31,616 nt of DNA from a virus: positions 1 to 31,616 of the IMG/VR virus record IMGVR_UViG_3300032435_000050. One strand, written 5' to 3'. The translations under genes were made by a program, and so were the position numbers. The notes below the pieces were generated by a model, which saw only the letters and a list, made by a program, of their open reading frames with translations, was not told where the DNA came from and ran no database searches. Positions 3,526 to 24,066 of this stretch are shown piece by piece (position 1 is the first letter of the stretch; every line of letters starts with the position of its first letter).

Positions 3526-3660
3526 TAAGTTTGATTGTTGGGGTCTAAGTTTGATTGTTTGGGTCTAAGTTTGATTGTTTGGGTCTAAGTTTGATTGTTT
3601 GGGTCTAAGTTTGATTGTTTGGGTCTAAGTTTGATTGTTTGGGTCTAAGTTTAATCAAAT
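3526..3660 (+). repeat. 20-bp tandem array, six copies plus a partial
   Basis: TAAGTTTGATTGTTTGGGTC is repeated head to tail at 3526, 3546, 3566, 3586, 3606 and 3626, with a degenerate seventh at 3646. Copies 2 to 6 are identical and copy 1 differs by one base. There are no spacers, so it is not a CRISPR array. It begins two bases after the nuclease stop codon and ends about 35 bases before terS. A period near two helical turns puts every copy on the same face of the DNA. Candidate roles: terminase recognition (pac/cos) site or replication iterons. Confidence 0.95.
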
Positions 3661-3692: not shown

Positions 3693-4331
3693 ATGCGAAA
3701 AATGGACAAACCTGAAGTGTTGTTAAAGAATCGTGGCGGCAGACGTGTTGGCTCTGGTAGACCAAGAGGTGAAAGTGTGTACGACCTTCCAGAACCTGAA
3801 GTGTTGTTAAAGAATCGTGGAGGCAGACGTGTTGGCTCTGGTAGACCAAGAGGTGAAAGTGTGTACGACCTTCCAGAACCTAAGCCGTTGAAGAACCCGA
3901 AAAAACCTCCAAGTGTCAACCCTAACAGGTTTCCTGGAACACTACTCCCGACGACGACTAGACGCACAGTTGTTGATGCAATGGTGCGCTACGTAGCAGG
4001 CATCAACATCTCACCAATGATTGTGATGCTCAACGACATGAAAATCAGGCACGATGCTGCGTGTAGGTCAATGGAACTCTACGAGGCTGAAACTGATGTA
4101 GACGAGAAAAAAAAGCACCTCAATCAAGCAATGTTTGAAAGCGGCTCAGCGGCAGAGTCAGCACTGCGTGTTGCACCTTACGTTCATTCAAAACTTGCCA
4201 CAGTGGTGCTTAAAGGCGATGCGGACAATCCTTTACAGCTCAACTTTGCATCGCTACGAGGTCTAACTAACGATGAGCTAGATCAGATGAACAGACTGAT
4301 TGTGAAGTCTGCCAACACAATTGATGTTTGA
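3693..4331 (+). CDS. terS: Terminase small subunit (TerS)
   Basis: Predicted DNA-recognition subunit of the packaging motor, called mainly from its place directly before TerL (the TerS stop TGA abuts the TerL ATG) and from the GGRRxGxGRPRG motif near the N-terminus, a signature often seen at the start of phage small terminases and similar to an AT-hook. The motif occurs twice because residues 7-34 are duplicated as 35-62, nearly identical in DNA. A Pro/Lys linker follows (63-75). The rest (about 80-212) has helical, charged segments without a recognisable domain. Either ATG 3693 or ATG 3702 could start it; GAGATAGA precedes the first. At 212 residues with the duplication it is within the normal TerS range. 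It lies beside the 20-bp array, a plausible binding target. Confidence 0.75.
   Translation: MRKMDKPEVLLKNRGGRRVGSGRPRGESVYDLPEPEVLLKNRGGRRVGSGRPRGESVYDLPEPKPLKNPKKPPSVNPNRFPGTLLPTTTRRTVVDAMVRYVAGINISPMIVMLNDMKIRHDAACRSMELYEAETDVDEKKKHLNQAMFESGSAAESALRVAPYVHSKLATVVLKGDADNPLQLNFASLRGLTNDELDQMNRLIVKSANTIDV
3711..3878 (+). repeat. 84-bp in-frame duplication in terS
   Basis: Bases 3711-3794 and 3795-3878 are direct repeats that differ at one third-codon position (GGC against GGA). Each encodes 28 residues including GGRRVGSGRPRGE. The near-identity at DNA level shows a recent duplication. Confidence 0.95.
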
Positions 4332-5942: not shown

Positions 5943-8711
5943 ATGGGTAAGTTTAACTCACTAGGTAAGATAGTAGATGGCTTGACGGCGCTCAAGGCAA
6001 AGTACGCCGTCAAGCCGGTGAATATCCCCTTACCCAATGCTGTGAGTGCCCGCAATTCAGGACTTGGCGCACGTGGCACAGCGCGCGAAGCAATTCAACA
6101 ACACCGTACTCTCAGAGAAGCCATTGACGAAAAGAATTCAATGGTTGATGTGGACGATGTGGAAATTTTACGCGGTGGTGTTGGGTATGCTGAAGGCGGC
6201 CTCGTTAGCCTGGCACAGAAATACGCCAACGGCGGCGAAGTCGATCTCAGCAAGCCATTCATTGGTTATCCTAACCTGCCACAGCCTCGTCAGCCTCGTC
6301 AGCCTCGTGCTTCAATTGATACCATCAAGGCCTCCCCACAGAGCCCTTTGTTCGGTTCTGTTGCAAGAGGGCTCAGGTCTTTGCAAGAGATGGCGAGCAA
6401 GTATGAGGTTAATCCCCGCATTCCTTTGCTCGGCGGCACCGGTGTAGATGAACTACTAGCTCTGCCTGGTGCAGCTTCATTGATGGAAGACATTTCTTAC
6501 CAAGGTCCTCGAGCATTAATTAGAGGCGGCAATGCTGCAACCGGTGGATTAGGCACATTTAAACTTGACCCTAGAACAACAGATTTGCTTGACGTAGGGG
6601 CAACAGCAGCAGGCGTTGGCCAACTAGGAGTTCTCGCAGGCCGAGGCGTTAACAAAGCAGCAATGGCTGCAGGTCAAGCAGGTGCTCGCTATGCCGACAG
6701 AGTCGTGCCTCAAATAATGGATCGTGGCGGCTACGGATCTGAAATCTTGCAAGGCTTAGCTCAAGGTTCAAGGTCTAACATCGTCAAGGAGCCGGGAGGT
6801 CAATGGCTCAAAGGCTCCGTTGAAGATGCGGTGAGGGGGTTGAAGGCTCCTTTACATCCGGGACGCGCCTTTGGCCATGACGCAAATGCAATAGGGCAGG
6901 CTTATGGATTGGATCCGGGTGAGGTTATTAGAAGCGCAAACCCTAGAACCGTGGCACTAAACACCTGGATCGACAAGAACCTCACCAACTACATCAAGAA
7001 AGAGATGGCCACACCAACTGACCCAGTGCGTCTCGGTATCGAGCGCCGGGTAGCCGCCGCCGATAAGACCCGTGCACTTGCTGAGAAAGAAGCTGTCAGG
7101 CAAGAGGCATGGGCTACCAAGTTACTGGCCGATGGCCCGAAACCCGGCATGGCTGCCGGCATCTTCGACAACGAAGTAGCCGCTGCAGGCCGCAGAGCAG
7201 CTCGCACCCGTGCCGCGGCGGATGATGCCTACGAGGCACAGGTTGCCGGGGCGATGCACATGAATGTGCCTGACCGACCCACCGTCGGGTCAAGGGTGGT
7301 GGCTAGCAGGATGAAAGAGGGGTTCCCACAGATGGGGGTCTCCTCGTCCAAATCAGCCCAGGAGTGGGAGAACTTGGCAGATTCTGCCGTAACCCCTTAT
7401 CGGCCAGAGTACACCTCCAAGGTGCTAGCTGATAATCCATGGCTAGCAACTGTGGCCCCTGAAACAAAAGTTTTCAACGTCGATTGGGCTAACAACCGGA
7501 TGAATGACTTCGGCTTCCCCCACCTCGCCGACGAGATGCGAATCGCCCTCAGCCCAAACAGTCCATTCCCACAAGACCTTCGCCTCAAGTACCTTGACCT
7601 GCCGAACCTAAGTGTGGACGCAGCGGTTGCCAAGGTAGGTCAAATCAATGCGTGGCGTGCCGCTCAGAAAGCAGAGCTAAACATGGGCAAGGCCAACAAC
7701 CCAGCCACCGTGCTCTACAAAGAATACCCGGATGACCCGAGAGGGCTGCGGTGGATGGAGTTGAAGGCTCCTGAAAAGACCGGCAAAAACGTGACAGTGA
7801 ACCAGACGCTTGAGGATCCTATGTTTGAGATCCCTATGGCTCAGCAAAACAGGTTCAATGAACAAGCCCACCGAGAAGCCACTCGCCAGGGAATTGTAGA
7901 CGAGGATGACCTCATGGACTTTGTTACGACGAGGCAGGATGAGTTATCACAAATGTGGGCTAAAGCTAATCCAACAAAAAAACAAGCAGACGAATCAGAA
8001 AAAGCTCTCCTCGAAGCCATGCAGTACGAAGGCGACACGATGAAGCACTGCATCGCTGGTGACGAGTACTGCGAGAAGGCCCTCAGCGGCGATTACAAGT
8101 ACTACAGCCTGCGCGACGCCAAGGGCGAGCCGCATGCGACGATTGAGGTGGGTAAGGGTCGGCCCATGGTTAGAAATCCTGAGCAGTTTAAGCGTTTTTC
8201 TGAGCTATCACCTGAACAACATTCGCGGTTTGAAGAGTATTCAAGACAGATGGGCAACGCTCCTGGACTTTCAAAGCTAGAGGATACCCATTTATTTAAC
8301 CCTAAATCGGGTACTATTTTCCGAACGGAAGAGGTTTTTCCACTTGAGCAAATCCTCCAAATCAAAGGCAAGCTCGACAAAAAGCCCGTCGACAAGTACA
8401 TCCCCTACGTCCAGGACTTTGTTCGTAGTGGCAAGTGGGGCGATGTGGGGGATTTGGAGCATACAGATTTAACATATCTAGGGCCAAAGAGCGGTTTCGG
8501 GCAAAAGGCGGCGTCAGACTTTGGTGTTGAGCCCGGCTACTTCACCGCCAAAGAATTTAATGATCTACAGAAGAAGGTCATTGACGCTCTGCCACCTGAA
8601 GGCTTCGCCGCAGGCGGTCTAGTCAGTGACAACGAGTACAACTCCGACACCGTAGACGACATTGTCTCCCAATTCAAAATTGACCAGCTAGTAGAGGAAA
8701 TGTATGGCTAA
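5943..8711 (+). CDS. Large virion-region protein with a PcfJ-like motif
   Basis: A 922-residue protein between TerL and portal. I do not recognise the whole protein. The clearest segment is at about 695-740: a TMKHC motif (C703), C710, then YYSLRDAKGEPHATIEV, which matches the PcfJ-like domain (MxHCVGGY...SLRD...PHxTIEV) found in phages and conjugative elements; its molecular role is not established. Two Gly-rich peptides, YAEGGLV (about 82) and FAAGGLV (about 890), resemble peptides in other proteins of this phage. Residues 190-260 are Ala/Gly-rich. QPR is repeated three times near 114. GGAG at 5930-5934 supports ATG 5943, and the stop overlaps the portal start by 8 bases. Possibly a head-associated or ejected protein; function unknown. 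Confidence 0.85.
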   Translation: MGKFNSLGKIVDGLTALKAKYAVKPVNIPLPNAVSARNSGLGARGTAREAIQQHRTLREAIDEKNSMVDVDDVEILRGGVGYAEGGLVSLAQKYANGGEVDLSKPFIGYPNLPQPRQPRQPRASIDTIKASPQSPLFGSVARGLRSLQEMASKYEVNPRIPLLGGTGVDELLALPGAASLMEDISYQGPRALIRGGNAATGGLGTFKLDPRTTDLLDVGATAAGVGQLGVLAGRGVNKAAMAAGQAGARYADRVVPQIMDRGGYGSEILQGLAQGSRSNIVKEPGGQWLKGSVEDAVRGLKAPLHPGRAFGHDANAIGQAYGLDPGEVIRSANPRTVALNTWIDKNLTNYIKKEMATPTDPVRLGIERRVAAADKTRALAEKEAVRQEAWATKLLADGPKPGMAAGIFDNEVAAAGRRAARTRAAADDAYEAQVAGAMHMNVPDRPTVGSRVVASRMKEGFPQMGVSSSKSAQEWENLADSAVTPYRPEYTSKVLADNPWLATVAPETKVFNVDWANNRMNDFGFPHLADEMRIALSPNSPFPQDLRLKYLDLPNLSVDAAVAKVGQINAWRAAQKAELNMGKANNPATVLYKEYPDDPRGLRWMELKAPEKTGKNVTVNQTLEDPMFEIPMAQQNRFNEQAHREATRQGIVDEDDLMDFVTTRQDELSQMWAKANPTKKQADESEKALLEAMQYEGDTMKHCIAGDEYCEKALSGDYKYYSLRDAKGEPHATIEVGKGRPMVRNPEQFKRFSELSPEQHSRFEEYSRQMGNAPGLSKLEDTHLFNPKSGTIFRTEEVFPLEQILQIKGKLDKKPVDKYIPYVQDFVRSGKWGDVGDLEHTDLTYLGPKSGFGQKAASDFGVEPGYFTAKEFNDLQKKVIDALPPEGFAAGGLVSDNEYNSDTVDDIVSQFKIDQLVEEMYG
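6282..6308 (+). repeat. 9-bp repeat, three copies (QPR)
   Basis: CAGCCTCGT occurs three times in a row without any change, encoding QPRQPRQPR. In frame. Confidence 0.9.
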
Positions 8712-11370
8712 GAAGAAACTACCAGTTGAGGTCATCGAGCTAGATGATGAAGACAAGCCTGGCAAAGAAGACAAGCCTGGCAAAGAAGACAAGCCTGGCA
8801 AAGAAGACAAGCGCGAACTCGTCGACATCAGCGAGCTAGACAAAGACGCCAAAGCCGGGGATGCCCGTGACACCGACGACGGCGGGGCGATGGTCTCTAT
8901 GGAGGAGACGAAAGAGGCGCGCATCAACTTGAAACACTTCGAGAACATCGTCGATGACGTGGACAAGAGCATGCTAGCCACCGCTGTCAGCGACCTAGTC
9001 ACCAAGATTGAGCGTGACAAGGAGGCCCGCAGCAAGCGTGACAAACTCTACGAGGAAGGTCTCCGCCGTACTGGCATGGGCGACGACGCTCCGGGAGGTG
9101 CTGCTTTCTCAGGCGCCACCAAGGTTGTGCACCCAATGCTCATCGAGGCTTGTGTCGACTTCTCCGCTCGGGCCATGAAGGAAATCTTTCCGCCCGCTGG
9201 CCCAGTCAAGAGCAAGGTCATAGGGCCACAGAACAAGGAAAAGCTCGCCAAGGCCGAACGCAAAGCCACCTACATGAACTGGCAAGCGACCGAACAGATG
9301 CCGGAGTTCCGGGGCGAACTGGAGCAACTCACCACTCAGCTGCCCCTCGGCGGTGGTCAGTACGTCAAGGTCAACTACAACAAACAGCGCAAGCGTCCTC
9401 GTCTGGAGTTTGTGCCCATTGACGATGTGCTGTTGCCCTTCGCCGCTACCAACTTCTACAGCGCTGAGCGGAAGACCCACGTCCAGTATATAACCCAGAT
9501 GGAGTACGACCGCAGGGTCAAGGCGGGCATGTACGCGGACGTCGACTTGCCGTCAGCGCCAATGCCGGACTTCACCAAGGCGTCGATTGCTAACGACAAG
9601 ATTGAAGGACGCAAGAGCGATTCCTACAACGAGGATGGGCTGCGTACCGTATTTGAAATCTACACTTGGTTGGAGATTGAAGACGAACTTTGCCCCTACA
9701 TCCTGACGGTTGACAAGAGCACTGAGAAAGCGCTCGCCCTCTACCGCAACTGGGACGAGGATGACGAGAATTGTGATGAGCTGGAGTGGATGGTGGAGTT
9801 CGGCTTTGTGCCTTGGCGGGGAGCTTACCCCATCGGCCTGACCCACATGATTGGAGGGCTGTCTGGAGCTGCCACAGGCGCTCTGCGCGCTCTGCTGGAC
9901 TCGGCACATATACAGAACGTGCCTACGATGCTGAAGCTCAAAGGCGGCCCATCTGGCCAGACCATCACCATGCAGCCCACTGAGGTTGTGGAGATAGAAG
10001 GCGGGGTCATGGTCGACGACATCCGCAAACTGGCCATGCCCATACCGTTTAACCCGCCGTCGCCTACGCTCTTCCAGTTGCTGGGATTCTGCGTTGAGGC
10101 CGGCAAGGGAGTTGTGCAGACGAGCTTTGAAAAGCTCTCCGACCAGAATGCCAACCAGCCTGTTGGCACGACGATGGCCCTAATCGAGCAGGGCATGGTG
10201 GTGTTTTCCAGCATTCATTCTCGTCTGCACTCCTCCATGGGCCGGGTGTTCAAGATCCTGGCCCGCATTAACAGTGCCTATTTGACGCCTGAAGATGTCA
10301 AGGCGCAAGGCTCGGGCCTGGAGATTGACCCTGAAGACTTCGACGACCCGATGGATGTGGTTCCGGTATCCGACCCACAGATCTTCAGCGAGACACAGCG
10401 CTTCGCCCAGATGCAAGCACTACTTCAGCGCAGCGCGCAGGTGCCGGGCATGTATGACCAGCGCAAGGTCGAGGAGATGTTCCTGCGGGCCATGAAGGTG
10501 CCGGACGACCTGTTGACGCCGAAGCCAGGCGAAGACGACGTCGACCCTGTTAGCGAGAATGTGGCGGCGACCATGCGTCAGCCCGTCTACGTCATGCCAT
10601 CGCAAGACCATCTAGGTCACCTGCAAGTGCACATGGCCTTCTTACAATCGCCTTTGTTCGGTCAGAACCCGGCGATTGTCAAAACCTACTTGTACCCGAT
10701 GGTCACCCACCTTAGGGACCACCTCTTGAACTATTACATGCAAGAAACCCACAAGGGTGTTAGGCTAGCAGAGGAGAAGGGTAAGATCAAGGACGACAGT
10801 ACCGAGGAGCAGGTAGCTATCATCCTGCGTGCTCAAGGCTTCATTGAAAAGCAGTTCCAAGGCTTTGCCGAAGCCCTTGCCCAGCTCGACAAGCAAGCCC
10901 AGCAGTATGCCCCTCCCCCTCCTCCGATGCCGCAAGATATGTCGCTTCAGGTCGCCAAGCTCAACGCAGAGCAACGCGCCCAAGGCGATGCCCAGCGGCT
11001 TCAGGCCAGCCAACAAAGCGAGGCACAACGTCTTGGTTTTGAACAGCAGAAGTTGCAAGCCACGCAGCAAAGCGAGGCTATGCGCCTACAAGGTGCCCAG
11101 CAAGCCGCGCAGCAGAAGAGCCAACAAGACGCTGCCATGGCTCAGTTCCAAGCTCAGCAGAAAGCCCAACAAGAGGCGCAACGTGCCCAAGCAGCCTTTG
11201 AGATGGAACAGTTTAGCCAGCAGCAAGAGTCTGCCCGCAAGGTGCAAGAACTTGAAACTCGCGAACGCATGAACACCTCTGACAATGATACGGCCATGTC
11301 CATTGTGGCCAGCGAGATTGCCACTGGCGAGCGTACTAATCTCAGTACCGGAACGGGTATCAATCCGTGA
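8704..11370 (+). CDS. Portal protein
   Basis: Dodecameric portal through which DNA enters and leaves the head. Called from its place after TerL, its size (888 residues) and typical portal segments: an N-terminal helical part with a metal-free PGGAAFSGATKVVHPML region near 123-145, the central LPLGGGQYVKVNY...PIDDVLLP part, and the wing/stem-like segment from YPIGLTHMIGGLSGAATG to LHSSMGRVFKILARI. The C-terminus (about 735-865) is Gln/Ala-rich and probably a long coiled coil or barrel; PPPPPMP precedes it. The first 40 residues are acidic with DKPGKE repeated three times. GAGGAA at 8694-8699 is the ribosome site; the start overlaps the previous gene. Long N- and C-terminal extensions are normal for short-tailed phages. 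Confidence 0.85.
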   Translation: MAKKKLPVEVIELDDEDKPGKEDKPGKEDKPGKEDKRELVDISELDKDAKAGDARDTDDGGAMVSMEETKEARINLKHFENIVDDVDKSMLATAVSDLVTKIERDKEARSKRDKLYEEGLRRTGMGDDAPGGAAFSGATKVVHPMLIEACVDFSARAMKEIFPPAGPVKSKVIGPQNKEKLAKAERKATYMNWQATEQMPEFRGELEQLTTQLPLGGGQYVKVNYNKQRKRPRLEFVPIDDVLLPFAATNFYSAERKTHVQYITQMEYDRRVKAGMYADVDLPSAPMPDFTKASIANDKIEGRKSDSYNEDGLRTVFEIYTWLEIEDELCPYILTVDKSTEKALALYRNWDEDDENCDELEWMVEFGFVPWRGAYPIGLTHMIGGLSGAATGALRALLDSAHIQNVPTMLKLKGGPSGQTITMQPTEVVEIEGGVMVDDIRKLAMPIPFNPPSPTLFQLLGFCVEAGKGVVQTSFEKLSDQNANQPVGTTMALIEQGMVVFSSIHSRLHSSMGRVFKILARINSAYLTPEDVKAQGSGLEIDPEDFDDPMDVVPVSDPQIFSETQRFAQMQALLQRSAQVPGMYDQRKVEEMFLRAMKVPDDLLTPKPGEDDVDPVSENVAATMRQPVYVMPSQDHLGHLQVHMAFLQSPLFGQNPAIVKTYLYPMVTHLRDHLLNYYMQETHKGVRLAEEKGKIKDDSTEEQVAIILRAQGFIEKQFQGFAEALAQLDKQAQQYAPPPPPMPQDMSLQVAKLNAEQRAQGDAQRLQASQQSEAQRLGFEQQKLQATQQSEAMRLQGAQQAAQQKSQQDAAMAQFQAQQKAQQEAQRAQAAFEMEQFSQQQESARKVQELETRERMNTSDNDTAMSIVASEIATGERTNLSTGTGINP
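8752..8811 (+). repeat. 18-bp repeat, three copies (DKPGKE)
   Basis: GACAAGCCTGGCAAAGAA is repeated exactly three times from 8752, followed by a 6-base partial. In frame, in the acidic N-terminus of the portal protein. Confidence 0.95.
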
Positions 11371-11564
11371 GCATAGAAAACAAACTGCTAACCGCCCTCA
11401 AGACCGCTCAAGTGGACTTTGCCACAGGCGCCTTGCGTACCCCATCCAAATGCGATGCCTTTGAATACGGGCAGCGTTGTGGACACATGAATGGCCTTGA
11501 AACCGCCATCAACATTCTTATCAACTTACTAAAGGACGAACAAGACGATGACTCAAAACTCTGA
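11367..11564 (+). CDS. Small conserved-looking phage protein, unknown
   Basis: 65 residues, starting at GTG 11367, which overlaps the portal stop (GTGA). No family recognised with certainty. It has a central EYGQRCGHMNGLETAINIL segment predicted helical, two Cys-adjacent Gly residues and an acidic tail (DEQDDD). Small proteins of this appearance are common between portal and scaffold genes in short-tailed phages. It overlaps the next gene by 17 bases, so all three are probably translated from one message. Function unknown. Confidence 0.75.
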   Translation: MSIENKLLTALKTAQVDFATGALRTPSKCDAFEYGQRCGHMNGLETAINILINLLKDEQDDDSKL

Positions 11565-11955
11565 TAGCGCGTTAGCGGAGGCTTTCCCAGCAGCAGATGC
11601 AGGGGTGCAGCCTTTCGGTTCGCGCGTTCTTGTGCAGATTCGCAGCGCCCGGCAGAAATCAGCCGGTGGGATTATTCTGACGACAGACACTAAGGCCACT
11701 GAGAGTGACAACACTCAGACAGCCAAGGTCATATCAACAGGCGCTTTGGCCTTCCATAGCCGAAACACCCAACAGCCATGGCCCGAAGGCAGCTGGTGTG
11801 TACCTGGTGATTTTGTTCGTGTGCCCAAGTACGGTGGTGACCGTTGGGCCGTTGCCCTGCCTGAAGGCGGCGACGCAATCTTCGTGCTCTTCAATGACCT
11901 CGACCTACTTGGCCGAGTCACCGTGGATCCTCTGCAAGTAAAAGCTTTTGTCTGA
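11548..11955 (+). CDS. GroES-like co-chaperonin
   Basis: 135-residue Cpn10/GroES-like protein. Expected features are visible: the opening beta strand FGSRVLVQI (about 22-31), then KSAGGIIL as in the GroES KTAGGIVL block that leads into the mobile loop, KVISTG, EGSWCVPGDFVRVPKYGG corresponding to the VKVGDxVxF block, and a closing FxxDLDLLGRV strand. Family members cap GroEL and help fold client proteins; phage versions such as T4 gp31 assist the major capsid protein. Its place between portal and scaffold fits that job. The insert PWPEG near 75 and an extra N-terminal 20 residues are longer than the usual ~95-residue host GroES. AAAGGA at about 11532 lies upstream of ATG 11548. Confidence 0.85.
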   Translation: MTQNSDSALAEAFPAADAGVQPFGSRVLVQIRSARQKSAGGIILTTDTKATESDNTQTAKVISTGALAFHSRNTQQPWPEGSWCVPGDFVRVPKYGGDRWAVALPEGGDAIFVLFNDLDLLGRVTVDPLQVKAFV

Positions 11956-15975: not shown

Positions 15976-16557
15976 ATGGGTGCAACACTTAGATACGTGA
16001 AAGAGTTTGAGTTCCCTTCCTACGGTAAGGTGAACGTGAAGGGGTATTCTCGTGGCGGTCCGGTTAAGAAGGCTGACGGAGGCTCTGTTAATCCCTCAGA
16101 CAACGAGCGAAAAAGGCTAATCGAAAAGCAACTTGGCATCAATCCCTCAGACAACGAGCGAAAAAGGCTAATGAAAAATCGATTTGGCATCAATCCCTCA
16201 GACAACGAGAGACAAATGCTACAAGCGGAGGCTGATGAAAAAGCGCAAAGATCTTCCACCCCTGACTTGGATGCTATGCGCAAGCGCTTTGGCGCTAATA
16301 TCTCGGACAAAGAGGCAGAAATGCTGCAAGAGGCGATGGATGAAAAGGCGCGCTCTAAAATCAAAGAGATGGGCTATGCAAGAGGCGGCGCAGTTAAGAA
16401 GGGCAAAGACGACTCCGCAAGCTGCCCCGTGCACATGGCAGGTATGAGCATGAAAGCCCGAGGCGGTGTGCCGGTCTCCAGCGGCGCTCCGCTGATAGCC
16501 ATGAAGAGTGGCGGCAAAGCTATGTTCGCCGGCGGTATGGTGAAAACCAAGAAGTAA
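15976..16557 (+). CDS. Repeat-containing Gly/Lys-rich protein, unknown
   Basis: 193 residues from ATG 15976 (AAGGGGAG at 15964-15971 is the ribosome site; an earlier in-frame ATG at 15889 lies inside the previous gene without a site). No known domain. Residues 39-89 hold three 17-residue repeats (NPSDNERKRLxxxxxGI), and a degenerate fourth copy (NISDKEAEML) follows near 109. Basic Gly-Gly peptides flank the repeats: YSRGGPVKKADGG (about 24-36), YARGGAVKK, KARGGVPV and FAGGMVK at the end. It has a C-P-x-H Cys-His pair in SCPVHMAGM. Very basic; possibly a nucleic-acid- or capsid-binding virion protein. Function unknown. Confidence 0.7.
   Translation: MGATLRYVKEFEFPSYGKVNVKGYSRGGPVKKADGGSVNPSDNERKRLIEKQLGINPSDNERKRLMKNRFGINPSDNERQMLQAEADEKAQRSSTPDLDAMRKRFGANISDKEAEMLQEAMDEKARSKIKEMGYARGGAVKKGKDDSASCPVHMAGMSMKARGGVPVSSGAPLIAMKSGGKAMFAGGMVKTKK
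16090..16242 (+). repeat. 51-bp tandem repeat, three copies
   Basis: Units start at 16090, 16141 and 16192. The first 31 bases of units 1 and 2 are identical; unit 3 has diverged after about 18 bases. Encodes the NPSDNER peptides. In frame. Confidence 0.9.
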
Positions 16558-17609: not shown

Positions 17610-17908
17610 GCCTCTACCTCGACACCACTGGCAATAGCACATACGGCATAGCGCTCTGCGCCAGGTGTTCGCGCAAGTACCCGATGGGTGAGTTGTATTC
17701 AGACCCTAACTCCCCTGCTTTGATGGTATGCAAGGAAGACTTGGATGTGCTAGACCCCTATCGCCTGGCTGCACGCACTGGTGAAAACATCGTGCTGCCT
17801 TTTGTGCGGCCTGATACTAATATCGCTACAAACCCTTCTGGCTTGATGACGCAAGACGATGACAGCTTCATCACAACCGACGACGGTGAAGGATACATCG
17901 TACCATGA
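17606..17908 (+). CDS. Small Cys-motif (zinc-ribbon-like) protein
   Basis: 100 residues from ATG 17606, whose first bases overlap the previous stop (ATGA). An N-terminal CARCSRKYPMGEL (C18, C21) and a later C42 with KEDLD form a CxxC-x20-CxxD pattern, a possible zinc ribbon with Asp as fourth ligand. The C-terminal half is acidic and Thr-rich (DDDSFITTDDGEGYIVP). Such small proteins are often found between adaptor and fibre genes; the job is unknown. ATGA overlap with the fibre gene downstream points to coupled translation. The upstream in-frame extension to 17543 reads from within the adaptor gene and has no site, so I reject it. Confidence 0.7.
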   Translation: MSLYLDTTGNSTYGIALCARCSRKYPMGELYSDPNSPALMVCKEDLDVLDPYRLAARTGENIVLPFVRPDTNIATNPSGLMTQDDDSFITTDDGEGYIVP

Positions 17909-19296
17909 GCATCCCTAGCAACAGCATACCCACCAAGCTTCTGCAACTGCCGGAAGACCCTGCACCATCTACCACCGGGTATTTGATGTATTCTCGGGGC
18001 GGGGTGACCTACAAAGTCCTGACATCAGATTTGATAACTGCTGCCGGCACAATTCCGTCGAGTCGGCAGATCATAGCCGGTACAGGCATGACGGGTGGCG
18101 GTGACCTATCGGCCAATCGCACTCTAAGCATCGCTGCAGGAGGAGTAGGGCCAACCCAACTTGCATCTACCGGGGTTACTCCTGGAGTATACGGCAGCGC
18201 AAGCAACGTGCCACAGGTCACTGTGGATGCTCAGGGTCGGGTTACGTCTGCCAGCAACATACCTTTCTCCGTTACAGGCTTCGTGCCCGACTCCCGGCAA
18301 GTGATTGCAGGCACCGGCTTGACAGGCGGAGGCACTTTATCCGCTGACCGAACCTTCTATGTTGACTTGGCCACCGCCATGCCCTTGTCAGTCAATGACA
18401 CTGGGGTAGTTGGTGTTAGTTCCAAATCGGCGCGTCAAGATCACAGACACCCTGCCATTGAACTGGCGGATGACACTCAGGTCAATGGCCTGCTTGGGCT
18501 GGATAGCGGTGGTACGGCGAAAAGTTTAGTGGCTGCTGCAGGCGCTCCAATCTACTCCGGGGCCGATGGACTCTATGTCGGCACTGCGGGTCTTGTAGGG
18601 CAAGTTGTGGTATCCGGCGGAGCAGGGGCGCCCACATGGGATAATGTGGCGCTGATTGGTGCCCAAAGTGCTAATGTTTTCTACGCAGGGCCATCAACCG
18701 GGCCCGCAGCGCCTGTAAGCTTCCGAACTGTAGTTGCAGCTGACATACCTACCCTTAACCAGGATAGCTCTGGAAGCGCAGGATCGCTGAAGTCTACTGC
18801 TACTACAGGCAAGCTGACGGTAACTGGCCCAGGAGCCGCTGCGACGCGTGCAATGACCGTACCGGATGCGGACTTTACAGTCGCTACGGGCGGAGGTGTT
18901 ATAACAGGCACCTCTAGCGGCACCAACACGGGCGACAATCCAGGCGTCACCTCTGTCACGGGAACCGCACCTATAGCTTCTAGTGGCGGCAACACCCCGG
19001 CTATTAGCTTGAACGACACGGCAGTCACGCCGGGCAGCTGGGGTTCTGCTACCGCGTCGGCGCAAATCACGCTCAACGCCAAAGGGCTTGCAACGGCGGC
19101 ATCTAACGTCACCATCACCCCGGCAGTTGGCAGCATCACAGGGTTAGGGACTAATGTGGCAACAGCGCTTGGTGTTGCGATAGGCTCTGCGGGCGCACCT
19201 GTATTGTTCAACGGCGTGGGTGGAACTCCGTCTTCTTTCACTTTAACTAATGCTACCGGGCAAATTGTGGCCGGAATTTCAGGAGGAACCTTTTAA
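17905..19296 (+). CDS. Tail fibre-like protein, first fibre gene
   Basis: 463 residues, ATG 17905 overlapping the previous stop. Typical of trimeric phage fibres: Gly/Thr/Ser/Ala-rich, no enzyme motifs, and two copies of an IAGTGxTGGGxLSAxRT module (about 57-72 and 132-147) that recurs in many fibre proteins. A KSARQDHRHP segment near 175-182 has the DHxHP His motif seen in fibre shafts and tips; metal binding is possible. The middle is beta-rich and repetitive, the end carries GTPSSFTLTNATG and closes with GGTF just before TAATG of the next gene. It probably forms part of the receptor-binding apparatus. N-terminal LPEDPAPSTTGYLMYSRGG may attach it to the virion. Confidence 0.8.
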   Translation: MSIPSNSIPTKLLQLPEDPAPSTTGYLMYSRGGVTYKVLTSDLITAAGTIPSSRQIIAGTGMTGGGDLSANRTLSIAAGGVGPTQLASTGVTPGVYGSASNVPQVTVDAQGRVTSASNIPFSVTGFVPDSRQVIAGTGLTGGGTLSADRTFYVDLATAMPLSVNDTGVVGVSSKSARQDHRHPAIELADDTQVNGLLGLDSGGTAKSLVAAAGAPIYSGADGLYVGTAGLVGQVVVSGGAGAPTWDNVALIGAQSANVFYAGPSTGPAAPVSFRTVVAADIPTLNQDSSGSAGSLKSTATTGKLTVTGPGAAATRAMTVPDADFTVATGGGVITGTSSGTNTGDNPGVTSVTGTAPIASSGGNTPAISLNDTAVTPGSWGSATASAQITLNAKGLATAASNVTITPAVGSITGLGTNVATALGVAIGSAGAPVLFNGVGGTPSSFTLTNATGQIVAGISGGTF

Positions 19297-21773
19297 TGGC
19301 TGCAACAAATTTCACGCCCATAATTTTATATAACACTGCCACTGCGGCTCTAGAGCCATCAGCGGTTAATTTAGATGATGGCGAATTGGCACTTAATCGA
19401 CTCGACGAGAAGCTTTACTTCAAGAACTCCGCCGGTACGGTCAAACTCCTCGCCCACTCTGCGGCAGCTACAGGCACGGTATCGTCAGTGTCGGTTGTAA
19501 CCGCGAACGGACTTTCGGGTTCGGTAGCTACTGCCACTACTACCCCTGCAATTACGCTGACTGTGGGGGCTATCAATCTAGCTACAGCAACAGCTTACCC
19601 CGGCACATCTGCTCTTGTCACAGTCGGCGCACTAAACGCAGGCAGCATCACCAGCGGCTTCGGCTCGATTGATATTGGAGGGGATGCGCTGACTGCGGGG
19701 GCTGTGACGGCTACTACGGTTACGGCTAGTGGTGCGGCAACAGTGGGCGCAGGCCTAGCAGTCACAGGCACAGTAACCTCCACAACCGACGCAACCCTAT
19801 CAGGCGTGCGAGTAGGAAAAGGCGCTGGAGAAATAGCGTCTAACACAGCTAGCGGCGCAGCCGCACTTCAAAACAACACCACAGGCTACGACAACACAGC
19901 TAGCGGGTTTCAGGCACTTTACTTCAACACCACAGGCAACAGTAATACAGCTAGCGGACGAAACGCACTTCAGAGCAACACCACAGGCTACGACAACACA
20001 GCTAGCGGGAGCGACGCACTCTATAGCAACACCACAGGCAACGACAACACAGCTACCGGGTTTCAGGCACTTTACTTCAACACCACAGGCAACAGTAATA
20101 CAGCTAGCGGGATGAACGCACTCCTGTACAACACTACTGGCAGCACCAACACGGCTAGCGGGGTGAACGCACTCCTGAGCAACACCACAGGCAGCAGCAA
20201 CACAGCTAGCGGGCAGAGCGCACTCCTAAACAATACCACAGGCAACTACAACACAGCCAGCGGGATTAACGCACTCCTGAGCAACACCACAGGCAACGAG
20301 AATACAGCTAGCGGGGTAAACGCACTCTTTAGCAACACCACAGGCACTCAAAACACAGCTAGCGGGGTGAACACACTCTACTACAACACAACAGGTAGCG
20401 GAAACACAGCCAGCGGGCATAGCGCACTCTACAACAACACCACAGGCGGCAGCAATACAGCTAGCGGCGTAAGCGCACTCCAAGCTAACACCACAGGCAC
20501 TCAAAACACAGCTATCGGGTTAAACGCACTCCTCAGCAATACCACAGGCAACTACAACACAGCTAGCGGGGTGAACGCACTCTATAGCAACACCACAGGC
20601 ACTAACAACACAGCTAGCGGGGTAAACGCACTCCAGAACAACACCACAGGCATTCAAAACACAGCTAGCGGGGTAAGCGCACTTCAGAACAACACCACAG
20701 GCAACAACAACACAGCTAGTGGGTATCAAGCACGACTTGGTTCAGCTGCTGCAAGTTCAAGCACGGTAGCTGTGGGTTATCGAGCTATGTATTTACTTAG
20801 CGCAACTACTGCTGATGCCACAGGTTCGGTAGCTGTGGGGGCTAACGCCCTAGCAGCCACCCAATCAACCGTAGCAAATTTGTCGGGTAACACAGCGGTT
20901 GGGCGTAGTGCGCTTGAAATTTACTCCAACACAGTCGGCGCAGTTTCGGATAACGTGGCAATTGGCGATAGCGCCCTAGCTTCTAACTCTGCTACAACTA
21001 GTACTATTCAATTTAACGTCGCAGTCGGTAAAGAGGCGTTGACGGTAAACATAGCTTCAAACAACACAGCAGTAGGCTACCGATCACTTTTTGCCAACAC
21101 CACAGGCAGCGACAACACAGCTAGCGGGTACTTCGCACTCCTGTACAACACCACAGGCATTCAAAACACAGCTAGCGGCGTAAGCGCACTCCAGAACAAC
21201 ACCACAGGTGCCAACAACACAGCTAGCGGGCTGAACGCCCTTGCTAACAACACCACAGCCAGCAACAACACAGCCATCGGGAATTCCGCACTCTACTCCA
21301 ACACCACAGGCAGCGGAAACACAGCGCTCAACCCATTAAATTCAGCAGGCAGTTACGCCCCCGTCTTTAACCCGACCACTCAAAATAATCGGTTCTGCAT
21401 GGGGTCTACGGCTGTCACGGATGCCTACATTCAGGTGGCTTGGACAGTGGTTTCAGATGCTCGGGACAAGACCAACTTTGCGCCTGTACCGCACGGCTTG
21501 GAGTTTGTTAAAGCGTTGCAACCCACGGCGTACCAATTCCGCACTGCACGGGACTCTGAGGAAACCAATGGCCGCGTGCGTTACGGCTTTAAAGCTCAAG
21601 ACGTGCTGGCGCTTGAGGGTTCTAACCCTGTCATCGTTGACAACGAAGACGAAAACAAACTGCGGATGATTGATACCGCTCTGATTCCTGTTTTGGTCAA
21701 GGCTATCCAAGAGCAACAAGCCCTTATTGAATCTCTCACAACCCGCCTCACGGCATTAGAAAGTAACCCATGA
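19296..21773 (+). CDS. Beta-roll tail fibre with S74 self-cleaving chaperone
   Basis: 825-residue trimeric fibre, second fibre gene. Residues 1-193: N-terminal region with VNLDDGELALNRLDEKLYFKN, a common virion-attachment signature. Residues 194-482: seventeen 17-residue repeats of the form NTTGxxNTASGxxALxx, like YadA-type left-handed beta-roll repeats. Then degenerate SVAVGANALA, NTAVGYRSL and VAIGDSALA motifs and four more repeats (601-668). C-terminus: intramolecular chaperone of endosialidase (peptidase S74), with SDARDK at 720-725. S720 and K725 have the same spacing as the Ser911/Lys916 dyad of the K1F endosialidase, so self-cleavage before S720 would free a ~106-residue chaperone. A heptad-like ALIESLTTRLTALES ends it. 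TAATG couples it to the first fibre gene; AGGAGG lies just before. Confidence 0.9.
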   Translation: MAATNFTPIILYNTATAALEPSAVNLDDGELALNRLDEKLYFKNSAGTVKLLAHSAAATGTVSSVSVVTANGLSGSVATATTTPAITLTVGAINLATATAYPGTSALVTVGALNAGSITSGFGSIDIGGDALTAGAVTATTVTASGAATVGAGLAVTGTVTSTTDATLSGVRVGKGAGEIASNTASGAAALQNNTTGYDNTASGFQALYFNTTGNSNTASGRNALQSNTTGYDNTASGSDALYSNTTGNDNTATGFQALYFNTTGNSNTASGMNALLYNTTGSTNTASGVNALLSNTTGSSNTASGQSALLNNTTGNYNTASGINALLSNTTGNENTASGVNALFSNTTGTQNTASGVNTLYYNTTGSGNTASGHSALYNNTTGGSNTASGVSALQANTTGTQNTAIGLNALLSNTTGNYNTASGVNALYSNTTGTNNTASGVNALQNNTTGIQNTASGVSALQNNTTGNNNTASGYQARLGSAAASSSTVAVGYRAMYLLSATTADATGSVAVGANALAATQSTVANLSGNTAVGRSALEIYSNTVGAVSDNVAIGDSALASNSATTSTIQFNVAVGKEALTVNIASNNTAVGYRSLFANTTGSDNTASGYFALLYNTTGIQNTASGVSALQNNTTGANNTASGLNALANNTTASNNTAIGNSALYSNTTGSGNTALNPLNSAGSYAPVFNPTTQNNRFCMGSTAVTDAYIQVAWTVVSDARDKTNFAPVPHGLEFVKALQPTAYQFRTARDSEETNGRVRYGFKAQDVLALEGSNPVIVDNEDENKLRMIDTALIPVLVKAIQEQQALIESLTTRLTALESNP
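19875..20741 (+). repeat. 51-bp tandem repeat, seventeen copies, in the fibre gene
   Basis: Seventeen head-to-tail 51-bp units encode NTTGxxNTASGxxALxx. Codons are strongly conserved (AAC ACC ACA GGC ... AAC ACA GCT AGC GGG), so the copies were spread or corrected recently; variable positions are confined to two to five residues per unit. Confidence 0.95.
21096..21299 (+). repeat. Second block of 51-bp repeats, four copies
   Basis: Four more units of the same 51-bp repeat follow about 350 bases of degenerate, YadA-like motifs, with a partial fifth from 21300. The units are as similar to the main block as the main block is to itself. Confidence 0.93.
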
Positions 21774-22504: not shown

Positions 22505-22849
22505 GTGGCTACGCTACGCACCACCCAGTCCGAATTCGCTGCGCTGATACCGAGCCTGATAAACAAGGCGCTGGAGCTAGGGTACGAGGTTACCTTGGGC
22601 GACGCTTATCGTGATCCAAGGGTGCATGGTGCACTGGGCGTGAAGATGGGGTATGGGCACTCCAGCAGCGGCCACAAGAACCGTCTTGCTATCGACCTCA
22701 ACCTGTTCAAAGACGGGGTGTTCCAGCAAAGCACTGAGGCGCATCAGGGTCTAGGCGAGTGGTGGGAGCTTCAGCATCCCAAGGCACGTTGGGGCGGGCG
22801 CTTCAACGACGGTAATCATTACAGTTTTGAACACGGAGGTATTAAATGA
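22505..22849 (+). CDS. M15 family endolysin (L-alanyl-D-glutamate-type peptidase)
   Basis: 114-residue peptidase that cuts cell-wall peptide bonds. Zinc site motif SGHKNRLAID (S55, H57, D64) matches the M15 SxHxxGxAxD-type motif, with the third ligand probably H105 in DGNHYSFEH. LGDAYRDP (31-38) and WGGRFNDGNH (96-105) are typical of the phage VanY/CwlK-like subfamily. Length is normal for single-domain phage copies; there is no signal peptide or wall-binding domain, so it needs a holin to reach its substrate. Starts at GTG 22505 directly after the previous stop, and overlaps the holin gene by 4 bases (ATGA). Confidence 0.93.
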   Translation: MATLRTTQSEFAALIPSLINKALELGYEVTLGDAYRDPRVHGALGVKMGYGHSSSGHKNRLAIDLNLFKDGVFQQSTEAHQGLGEWWELQHPKARWGGRFNDGNHYSFEHGGIK

Positions 22850-23268
22850 TTCCAGTACCTGTCATTACGGGTTTATTCAGCATTGGCTCGAAGCTGATTG
22901 AAAAGTTTTTTCCAGACCCGGCGGAGAAAGCCAAAGCAGAACTAGAACTTCTACGCATGGTGAGGGATGGTGAGATGCAGGAGATGCAGATCGCCCTTTC
23001 TGCCATCATCGCCGAGGCGAATAGTCCCGATCCGTGGACAAGCCGGGCGAGACCGAGCTTCCTCTACGTCGTCTACATCCTGCTGCTCTGGTCTATCCCA
23101 ATGGGCATACTGACCATCTTCAAACCCGAAGCTGCGGCGGCATTTACAGCGGGCTTTAAGGCATGGATGGACTCGATACCCGAACCAATACTGACACTGT
23201 TCGGCACTGTGATGCTTGGGTATGTACTTGGCCGCAGCTACGAGAAGGTGAAGGGGGCCGCAAAATGA
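22846..23268 (+). CDS. 3TM-type holin
   Basis: 140 residues. N-terminal hydrophobic start (IPVPVITGLFSIGSKLI), then a charged helix with KAKAELELLR and EMQIALSAIIAEANSPDPWTSRARPSF, which is the pattern of the PF11351-type holin of gene transfer agents (EAxSxxxxxxxxRP). Hydrophobic segments at about 72-92 and 114-130. ATG 22846 overlaps the endolysin stop (ATGA). Expected to make pores that let the M15 endolysin act on the wall. Confidence 0.8.
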   Translation: MIPVPVITGLFSIGSKLIEKFFPDPAEKAKAELELLRMVRDGEMQEMQIALSAIIAEANSPDPWTSRARPSFLYVVYILLLWSIPMGILTIFKPEAAAAFTAGFKAWMDSIPEPILTLFGTVMLGYVLGRSYEKVKGAAK

Positions 23269-23433: not shown

Positions 23434-24066
23434 ATGGCCTATGTGATGTCTTTTTCCTCCCTACAAGAGGACGCTCGCCGATACCTGGAAAGGGGCTTCA
23501 CCGCTGAGAGTGACCCGCTTGTCTATGAGCAATTGCCCCGGCTGATTAACTTCGCTGAGCGCCGGATTTCCCGCGAGCTTAAAATCCAAGGCTTCATCCG
23601 AGTAATGACAGCGCCTTTGGTACTTGGCACGGCTGTTTATTTGAAGCCTGACCGCTGGCGCGAGACCATCTCCATGACGCTGGCGGGCAAGCCCATATTC
23701 CCTAGATCTGTGGAATATGTGCGGTCATATTGGCCAACTCAATCGGCTACAGGCGAGACGGAATTCTATGCGGACTACGACTATTCTAACTGGCTCTTTG
23801 CACCAACCCCTGATGCGGATGCCACGCTAGAAGTACTCTATTACGAGCTGCCCCCGTTGCTGGATGAAACTAATACCGCGAACTGGCTTACCGCCTACGC
23901 TCCTAATGTACTGCTTTATGCCACCTTGCTGGAATGCACCCCTTTCCTGAAGAACGATGAACGCATAGCCACTTGGCAAGCGATGTATGACCGCGCGGCA
24001 CAGGCACTCAATGGCGAAGACCTAAAGCGCATCATGGACCGCAGTACCTCGCGGCAAGGAGCTTAA
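23434..24066 (+). CDS. Phage adaptor / tail tubular A-like protein
   Basis: 210 residues, CGGAG before ATG 23434. Helix-rich N-terminus with EDARRYLERG and YEQLPRLINFAERRISRELKI, the pattern of T7 gp11-like / P22 gp4-like adaptor proteins that sit between portal and nozzle; a beta-rich middle with VYLKPDRWRETISM and PRSVEYVRSYWP; and a C-terminus with TLLECTPFLKNDERIATW. It is next to the fibre-like tail protein and the nozzle. The first adaptor-like gene (16629) is a distinct sequence, so the two may form successive rings. Confidence 0.8.
   Translation: MAYVMSFSSLQEDARRYLERGFTAESDPLVYEQLPRLINFAERRISRELKIQGFIRVMTAPLVLGTAVYLKPDRWRETISMTLAGKPIFPRSVEYVRSYWPTQSATGETEFYADYDYSNWLFAPTPDADATLEVLYYELPPLLDETNTANWLTAYAPNVLLYATLLECTPFLKNDERIATWQAMYDRAAQALNGEDLKRIMDRSTSRQGA

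Follow-up and report, generated by a model that had tools for sequence, protein, structure and literature searches.

A modular phage tail fibre whose YadA-like repeat array probably serves as a recombination cassette

The tail fibre gene of a phage fragment was analyzed in a stretch of 31,616 nucleotides (IMG/VR virus record IMGVR_UViG_3300032435_000050, positions 1 to 31,616; hereafter the window), which contains primase, terminase, portal and capsid genes. The gene encodes a protein with a tandem array of 17-residue units followed by a C-terminal S74 domain. Our results suggest that this protein is probably a modular receptor-binding tail fibre whose YadA-like array serves as a recombination cassette. 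We describe here its anatomy, its predicted fold, the variation in unit number among relatives and the swapping of array alleles on near-identical backbones.

The fibre gene and its parts, all on the plus strand, are as follows (pLDDT, predicted local distance difference test):

19296..21773: tail fibre gene, a single open reading frame of 825 residues with matches to PHROGs 4636, 6002 and 23837 (tail spike or virion structural)
19296..19526: putative N-terminal virion-attachment module, residues 1-77, the fibre part retained among capsid relatives
19527..19841: shaft, ending in STTDATLSGVRVGKGAGEIAS, the conserved array lead-in (alignment consensus of pre-array sequences)
19842..20708: block 1, 17 units of 51 bp (17 residues) each; pLDDT 83 in a 12-unit model
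19893..19943: unit 2, one mismatch to unit 5 (20046-20096), the sole recent-looking internal copy
20709..21062: irregular YadA-like coils (xVAVGxxAL) between the blocks, seen in the translation; low pLDDT in the full-length model, no Pfam match
20709-20759: degenerate 18th unit, at the start of the inter-block coil region
21063..21317: block 2, a looser coil (21063-21113) followed by four canonical units (21114-21317), from translation and unit comparison
21318..21452: pre-cut stretch, residues 675-719, conserved in two alignments of relatives; the mature fibre tip if cleaved
21453..21770: Peptidase_S74 intramolecular chaperone, residues 720-825 (PF13884, E 1.5e-9; profile matches to 8jov, 3gud, 6f45 and 7dc3)
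21453-21455 and 21468-21470: codons of S720 and K725, the S74 dyad

Array exchange on near-identical backbones

A population scan with a downstream gene yielded contigs sharing 5-13 kb at mostly 97-100% identity (93-95% for L320). Four arrays were found in this population, namely those of L004 (17 units counted), L099 (9 units), L332 (at least 13 units, truncated by the contig) and L325 (at least 19 units, with another C-terminus). Between L099 and L332, identity starts within a unit and continues at ~99.9% through the last 7 units, the S74 domain and about 6.4 kb beyond, while the upstream units are unrelated. L004 and L099 share about 72% identity over the array and ~100% beginning at the C-terminus. 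Steps in identity were also observed for L088/L101 and L102/L103 (arrays 76-83%, downstream mostly 95-100%) and for L082/L106 (array 69-79%, upstream genes mostly 95-100%). L325 (3266-6037) has the backbone and N-terminus of L099, but its array is different and leads into longer YadA-like coils and another C-terminus. A population scan of L088 added little. As judged from the contigs, these identity steps point to recent exchange of arrays, the junctions lying within or beside the array; arrays seem to change mainly by replacement and crossover and not so much by stepwise expansion.

In relatives with an 83-87% identical capsid protein, the fibre is usually common over the first ~50-77 and at most ~150 residues. 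In most capsid relatives with enough downstream sequence, the match to the fibre is confined to about residues 1-50 to 1-150, the commonest span being 1-57 or 1-77; L173 is exceptional in that its fibre matches residues 1-460 at 39%. Phages whose S74 regions are 82-93% identical at the amino acid level have differing N-termini, two of which are Mtd_N, and always bear 17-residue units where upstream sequence exists. The array lead-in ATLSGVRVGKGAG and the C-terminus are conserved; the intervening sequence is not.

The Mtd N-terminal domain is an anchor known from a retroelement-diversified fibre. In L082 (2921-4453) it is fused to a 17-residue array and an S74 domain (E 1.7e-12 for the Mtd domain). 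In L360 (463-1572), a relative of the L088 backbone, an additional open reading frame with YadA-like coils lies just downstream of the fibre gene position.

Variation in unit number

The initial annotation had proposed that copy number can change without breaking the frame, and the relatives agree with this. In the S74 relatives, unit number is not fixed but ranges from 3 to 24. Over 4.7 kb, L011 and L012 differ by no more than one single-nucleotide polymorphism and one perfect 51-bp tandem copy, which is present in L011; L015 agrees with L012. Unit counts were equal within each of the pairs L007/L020, L013/L014 and L042/L043, which were examined for unit-number variation. Only one near-identical contig spans the window fibre, namely L002 (11,370 bp); it shows a single mismatch, at 20923, and its array is that of the window.

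These data were also considered in terms of a static structural shaft, i.e. an ordinary old fibre spacer whose alleles differ through occasional whole-gene transfer only. Such a shaft would fit the equal unit number in most near-identical contig pairs (for example L089-L092, L008/L009 and the window/L002) and the fact that N-terminal modules are swapped as well. However, the junction within a unit between otherwise 99.9% identical contigs, the one-unit indel and the six codons per unit that vary above synonymous framework sites all argue against it, and we regard a static shaft as unlikely.

Composition and age of the array

The canonical unit is NTASGxxALxxNTTGxx, of which 17 copies are found in block 1 and 4 in block 2, giving 21; looser coils flank both blocks and separate them. 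The count depends on the motif used, the window scoring 20 to 22 units by different motifs. The DNA self-match of block 1 at a lag of 51 was 0.772 and thus beyond all 1000 codon shuffles (0.334 ± 0.017, maximum 0.393), in agreement with the annotated organization of 51-bp units in two blocks. The variable residues at fixed positions were likewise recovered: positions 6, 7, 10, 11, 16 and 17 vary, while N1, T2, A3, G5, L9, N12, T13 and T14 are constant in all 21 units.

Two further parts of the same annotation, the near-identity of the units and their recent expansion, were not confirmed. Identity between units averages only 76% for DNA (24% divergence) and 69% for protein, so that the units cannot be called near-identical; only units 2 and 5 are almost the same (1 of 51 bases different). 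Divergence of units within the gene nearly equals that between phages, with a codon identity of 0.78 within and 0.67 between genes, and adjacent units of the window are no more alike than distant ones (lag-1 p 0.28). Since unit likeness is only somewhat higher within than between genes and neighbours are not closer, the window array looks mostly old and already shuffled, and only units 2 and 5 form a recent patch. A three-unit block duplication as the origin of this patch was rejected, as units 1 and 4 differ at 10 bases and units 3 and 6 at 14.

Recent tandem expansion, by which the array would lately have grown from one unit through slippage, could account for the 51-bp period and the position-specific codons that the units have in common, as well as for units 2 and 5, the perfect one-unit copy in L011 and the array of L107, which is truly young (0 fourfold differences). 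Given the divergence of the window units, the lack of likeness between neighbours, the codon identities and the recurrence of framework codons in unrelated backbones, this explanation is quite improbable.

Other window genes contain short in-frame tandem duplications that are 90-100% alike, at 3709-3881 (84-bp unit), 6282-6308 (9-bp unit), 8749-8812 (18-bp unit), 875-912 (12-bp unit) and 16090-16221 (51-bp unit). On sequence grounds these, and not the fibre array, look like the recent expansions of this phage.

Differences in unit number and array could also be an assembly artefact caused by collapsed or chimeric contigs, the contigs being metagenomic and several arrays lying at contig ends (L011 and L012; L332 is truncated). 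This is very unlikely, as arrays sharing a backbone diverge by about 20-28% throughout and are therefore not the product of a collapse. Moreover, alleles recur across records (L012/L015), and most arrays lack exact internal repeats of at least 55 nt.

Variable codons on a conserved framework

In the window array, the first and second positions of codons 6, 7, 10, 11, 16 and 17 differ in 58.8% of comparisons and the framework fourfold sites in 17.7%, corresponding to a ratio of 3.3 (bootstrap 2.4-6.4). The ratio was above 1 in 19 of 21 arrays, the exceptions being L089 and L095. Framework codons are position-specific (Thr13 ACC versus Thr14 ACA; Gly5 GGG versus Gly15 GGC, with GGG making up 13% of the Gly codons in the window), and the same framework codons were found on unrelated backbones. 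In 23 of 26 comparisons, fourfold differences were fewer in the framework than in the S74 region.

Younger arrays are found in the related fibres of L107 (750-2750) and L108 (1324-3576). The units of L107 show zero fourfold differences and a 42% difference in variable codons, which would make it the cleanest case for diversifying selection. The codon pattern would be best explained by diversifying selection together with exchange between units and genomes, and constraint on the framework DNA could contribute.

Mutation of the variable codons by a diversity-generating retroelement, which might be suggested by the many NNC codons derivable from AAC (positions 7, 11 and 16) and by the Mtd N-terminal domain in two relatives, is extremely unlikely, since a search of the window and of 12 relatives (records may be fragments) revealed no RVT_1 reverse transcriptase, since no template-like copy was found outside the fibre gene, and since the variable-position codons CAG, CAA, GGA and GTA are not A-to-N changes of AAC.

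Predicted fold of the array

A gap-free, register-perfect alignment of 53 twelve-unit stretches was used as input for a 12-unit model, which reached a pLDDT of 83 and a predicted template modelling score of 0.80 and displays two short strands per coil. The top rows of a Foldseek search with this model were the adhesin heads BpaC (E 0.13) and CbpF (E 0.28). Realignment gave Z scores of 16.7 for CbpF, 13.7 for BpaC (35% identity over 169 residues), 12.8 for AtaA and 12.5 for BoaA (27% identity). Adhesin heads are 20-35% identical to the model, whereas left-handed helical acyltransferases reach similar Z scores at about 7-14% identity. The prediction is thus a left-handed roll with two strands per coil, which superposes also on left-handed acyltransferase helices. 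Its regular period is 17 residues and not the 14 residues of the YadA-like head coil. No family for the C-terminal membrane anchor of trimeric autotransporter adhesins was found in the Pfam scan of the fibre, the C-terminus being S74, and no Pfam YadA match was obtained in 17 fibre relatives at 0.01. A Protein Data Bank (PDB) sequence search with the whole fibre or the fibre alignment also found nothing.

Because the adhesin heads superpose at higher identity than the acyltransferases, the array is called YadA-like in its modelled fold, outside the YadA Pfam family and not an autotransporter. The annotated YadA-like beta-roll therefore stands as far as the predicted fold is concerned, but not at the level of Pfam sequence models.

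A full-length model built with 18 relatives (pLDDT 58) rendered the array as a wider solenoid, which superposed best on tailspikes and further beta-helical proteins (Z up to 23.6), and its best Foldseek match was only E 0.16. It was set aside for the register-perfect 12-unit model because of the higher confidence of the latter.

The S74 domain

Peptidase_S74 was the sole family in the Pfam scan of the fibre (residues 720-772, E 1.5e-9, 38.5 bits versus a gathering score of 22) and was matched in 18 of 18 relatives. S720 and K725 show no substitution in either the 18 close or the 20 wider relatives; in the latter, D721, R723, D724 and the GFxAQ motif (GFKAQ in the window) are invariant as well. 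Profile matches of the S74 domain include solved chaperone domains of phages as well as MYRF (the PDB entries listed above), and the full-length model contains a C-terminal helix (796-823). The dyad S720-x4-K725 stands at the domain start and has the spacing of S578/K583 in MYRF, a dyad equivalent to that of endosialidases (PMC3742443). The S74 chaperone with an S-x4-K dyad proposed at the outset is supported, and the domain presumably cuts itself off before S720.

Proposed function of the fibre

Taken together, we propose that residues 1-77 would anchor the fibre to the virion and that a beta-rich shaft would lead into a YadA-head-like roll of 17-residue coils, on which a fixed framework (NTASG..AL..NTTG) would display six variable residues per coil. 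The S74 domain would chaperone assembly and then cleave itself before S720. Tandem units would permit in-frame gain or loss of single units and crossovers between units in different register, and the whole array could be replaced between the common lead-in and the common C-terminus; fibre length and lateral surface would therefore change, with the ends and the frame being kept. The fibre is probably trimeric, the variable residues may contact the receptor, and it is plausible that array change alters host range.

Several observations weigh against a recombination cassette in a YadA-like fibre. The array of the window phage itself is represented by one identical allele only, and relatives by capsid (L159-L238) and by downstream gene (L240-L319) gave no second one. 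Every allele comes from metagenome assemblies, where repeats favour collapse or chimeras. Foldseek with the 12-unit model yielded no match at E 0.001 or better, there was no Pfam YadA match for the full-length fibre to E 1 or for the middle coils to E 10, and outside the arrays the full-length model is of low quality. Finally, the ratio of 3.3 would be too high if the framework fourfold sites are not neutral, as may be the case.

A bolder and more doubtful reading is that the array is an evolved shuffling cassette whose framework DNA (for example AAC ACC ACA GGC) stays similar in unrelated phages because sequence is continually exchanged among units as well as among genomes. If this were true, hypervariable coils would be recombined in frame from a shared pool, providing a recombination-only alternative to retroelement fibre diversification.

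Genomic setting

A DNA search of the window against phage sequences gave no match. The neighbouring genes are:

17905..19296, plus strand: tail-protein-like gene whose stop codon overlaps the fibre ATG (PHROG 21962 and others)
22505-22849: weak M15 peptidase match (lysis gene), downstream of the fibre gene
22846-23268: holin of the gene transfer agent (GTA) type (lysis gene), downstream of the fibre gene
23434-24066: SU10-type adaptor, downstream of the fibre and lysis genes

A phage-encoded GroES-like co-chaperonin (11548-11955; PHROG 3188, E 9e-9) is located between the portal and capsid genes. The 20-bp tandem repeat TAAGTTTGATTGTTTGGGTC is present in six copies that are 99% alike (3526-3652); it lies in the interval that separates the VRR-NUC gene from the pre-terminase open reading frame and is possibly a packaging or regulatory site.

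Comparison with known systems

Fibres with adhesin-like repeats are widespread among environmental phages, with hundreds of matching stretches, and are usually labelled structural only. PHROGs 4636 (tail spike), 6002 and 23837 (virion structural), which match strongly across the repeat and C-terminal parts of the fibre, likewise provide a structural annotation only, and repeat variation is undescribed there. A literature search for tail fibres that vary in repeat number or undergo hypervariable recombination brought up mainly papers on other subjects. Should exchange take place at the level of the array, recombination junctions could be read straight from contigs, six host-touching residues per coil could be predicted, and the relation of fibre length and surface to host range would become testable. 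A chaperone-tipped fibre could swap its entire body and yet still fold and attach.

Trimeric autotransporter adhesin heads are built of 14-residue coils. The heads of BpaC (7o23), BoaA (3s6l), AtaA (3wp8) and CbpF (9gh4) share with the array the two-strand coils and an xVAxGxxA-type motif and superpose on it at Z 12.5-16.7 and 20-35% identity. Unlike them, the window array has a 17-residue coil, no Pfam YadA match and no membrane anchor, and it is set in a phage fibre. The S74 or intramolecular chaperone proteins (endosialidases, the neck appendage 3gud, the long tail fibre 6f45 and MYRF 7dc3) resemble the window protein in the C-terminal S-x4-K dyad, SDxRxK, GFxAQ and the terminal helix. In the window fibre, however, S74 would mature a YadA-like roll and not a beta-helical enzyme.

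'YadA domain-containing' virion proteins are known from marine phages (PMC6224464, PMC9146016, PMC3909814). In cyanophage S-TIM4, a YadA-domain fibre gene was under selection in host adaptation, and its clustered changes were explained by internal-repeat recombination (PMC6224464), which for ORF108 was inferred in experimental evolution. In a pelagiphage tail fibre, the YadA region under-recruits reads, and a figure legend names both YadA-like and S74 regions among the fibre domains (PMC3909814). S-TIM4 ORF108 and the marine YadA-domain proteins share with the window fibre the YadA-like repeats as a hot spot of change. The window fibre has a regular 17-residue array directly before S74, and array alleles are swapped on near-identical natural backbones. 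New are thus the combination of a regular 17-residue array with S74, natural swaps with junctions in the array, and the contrast between framework and variable codons.

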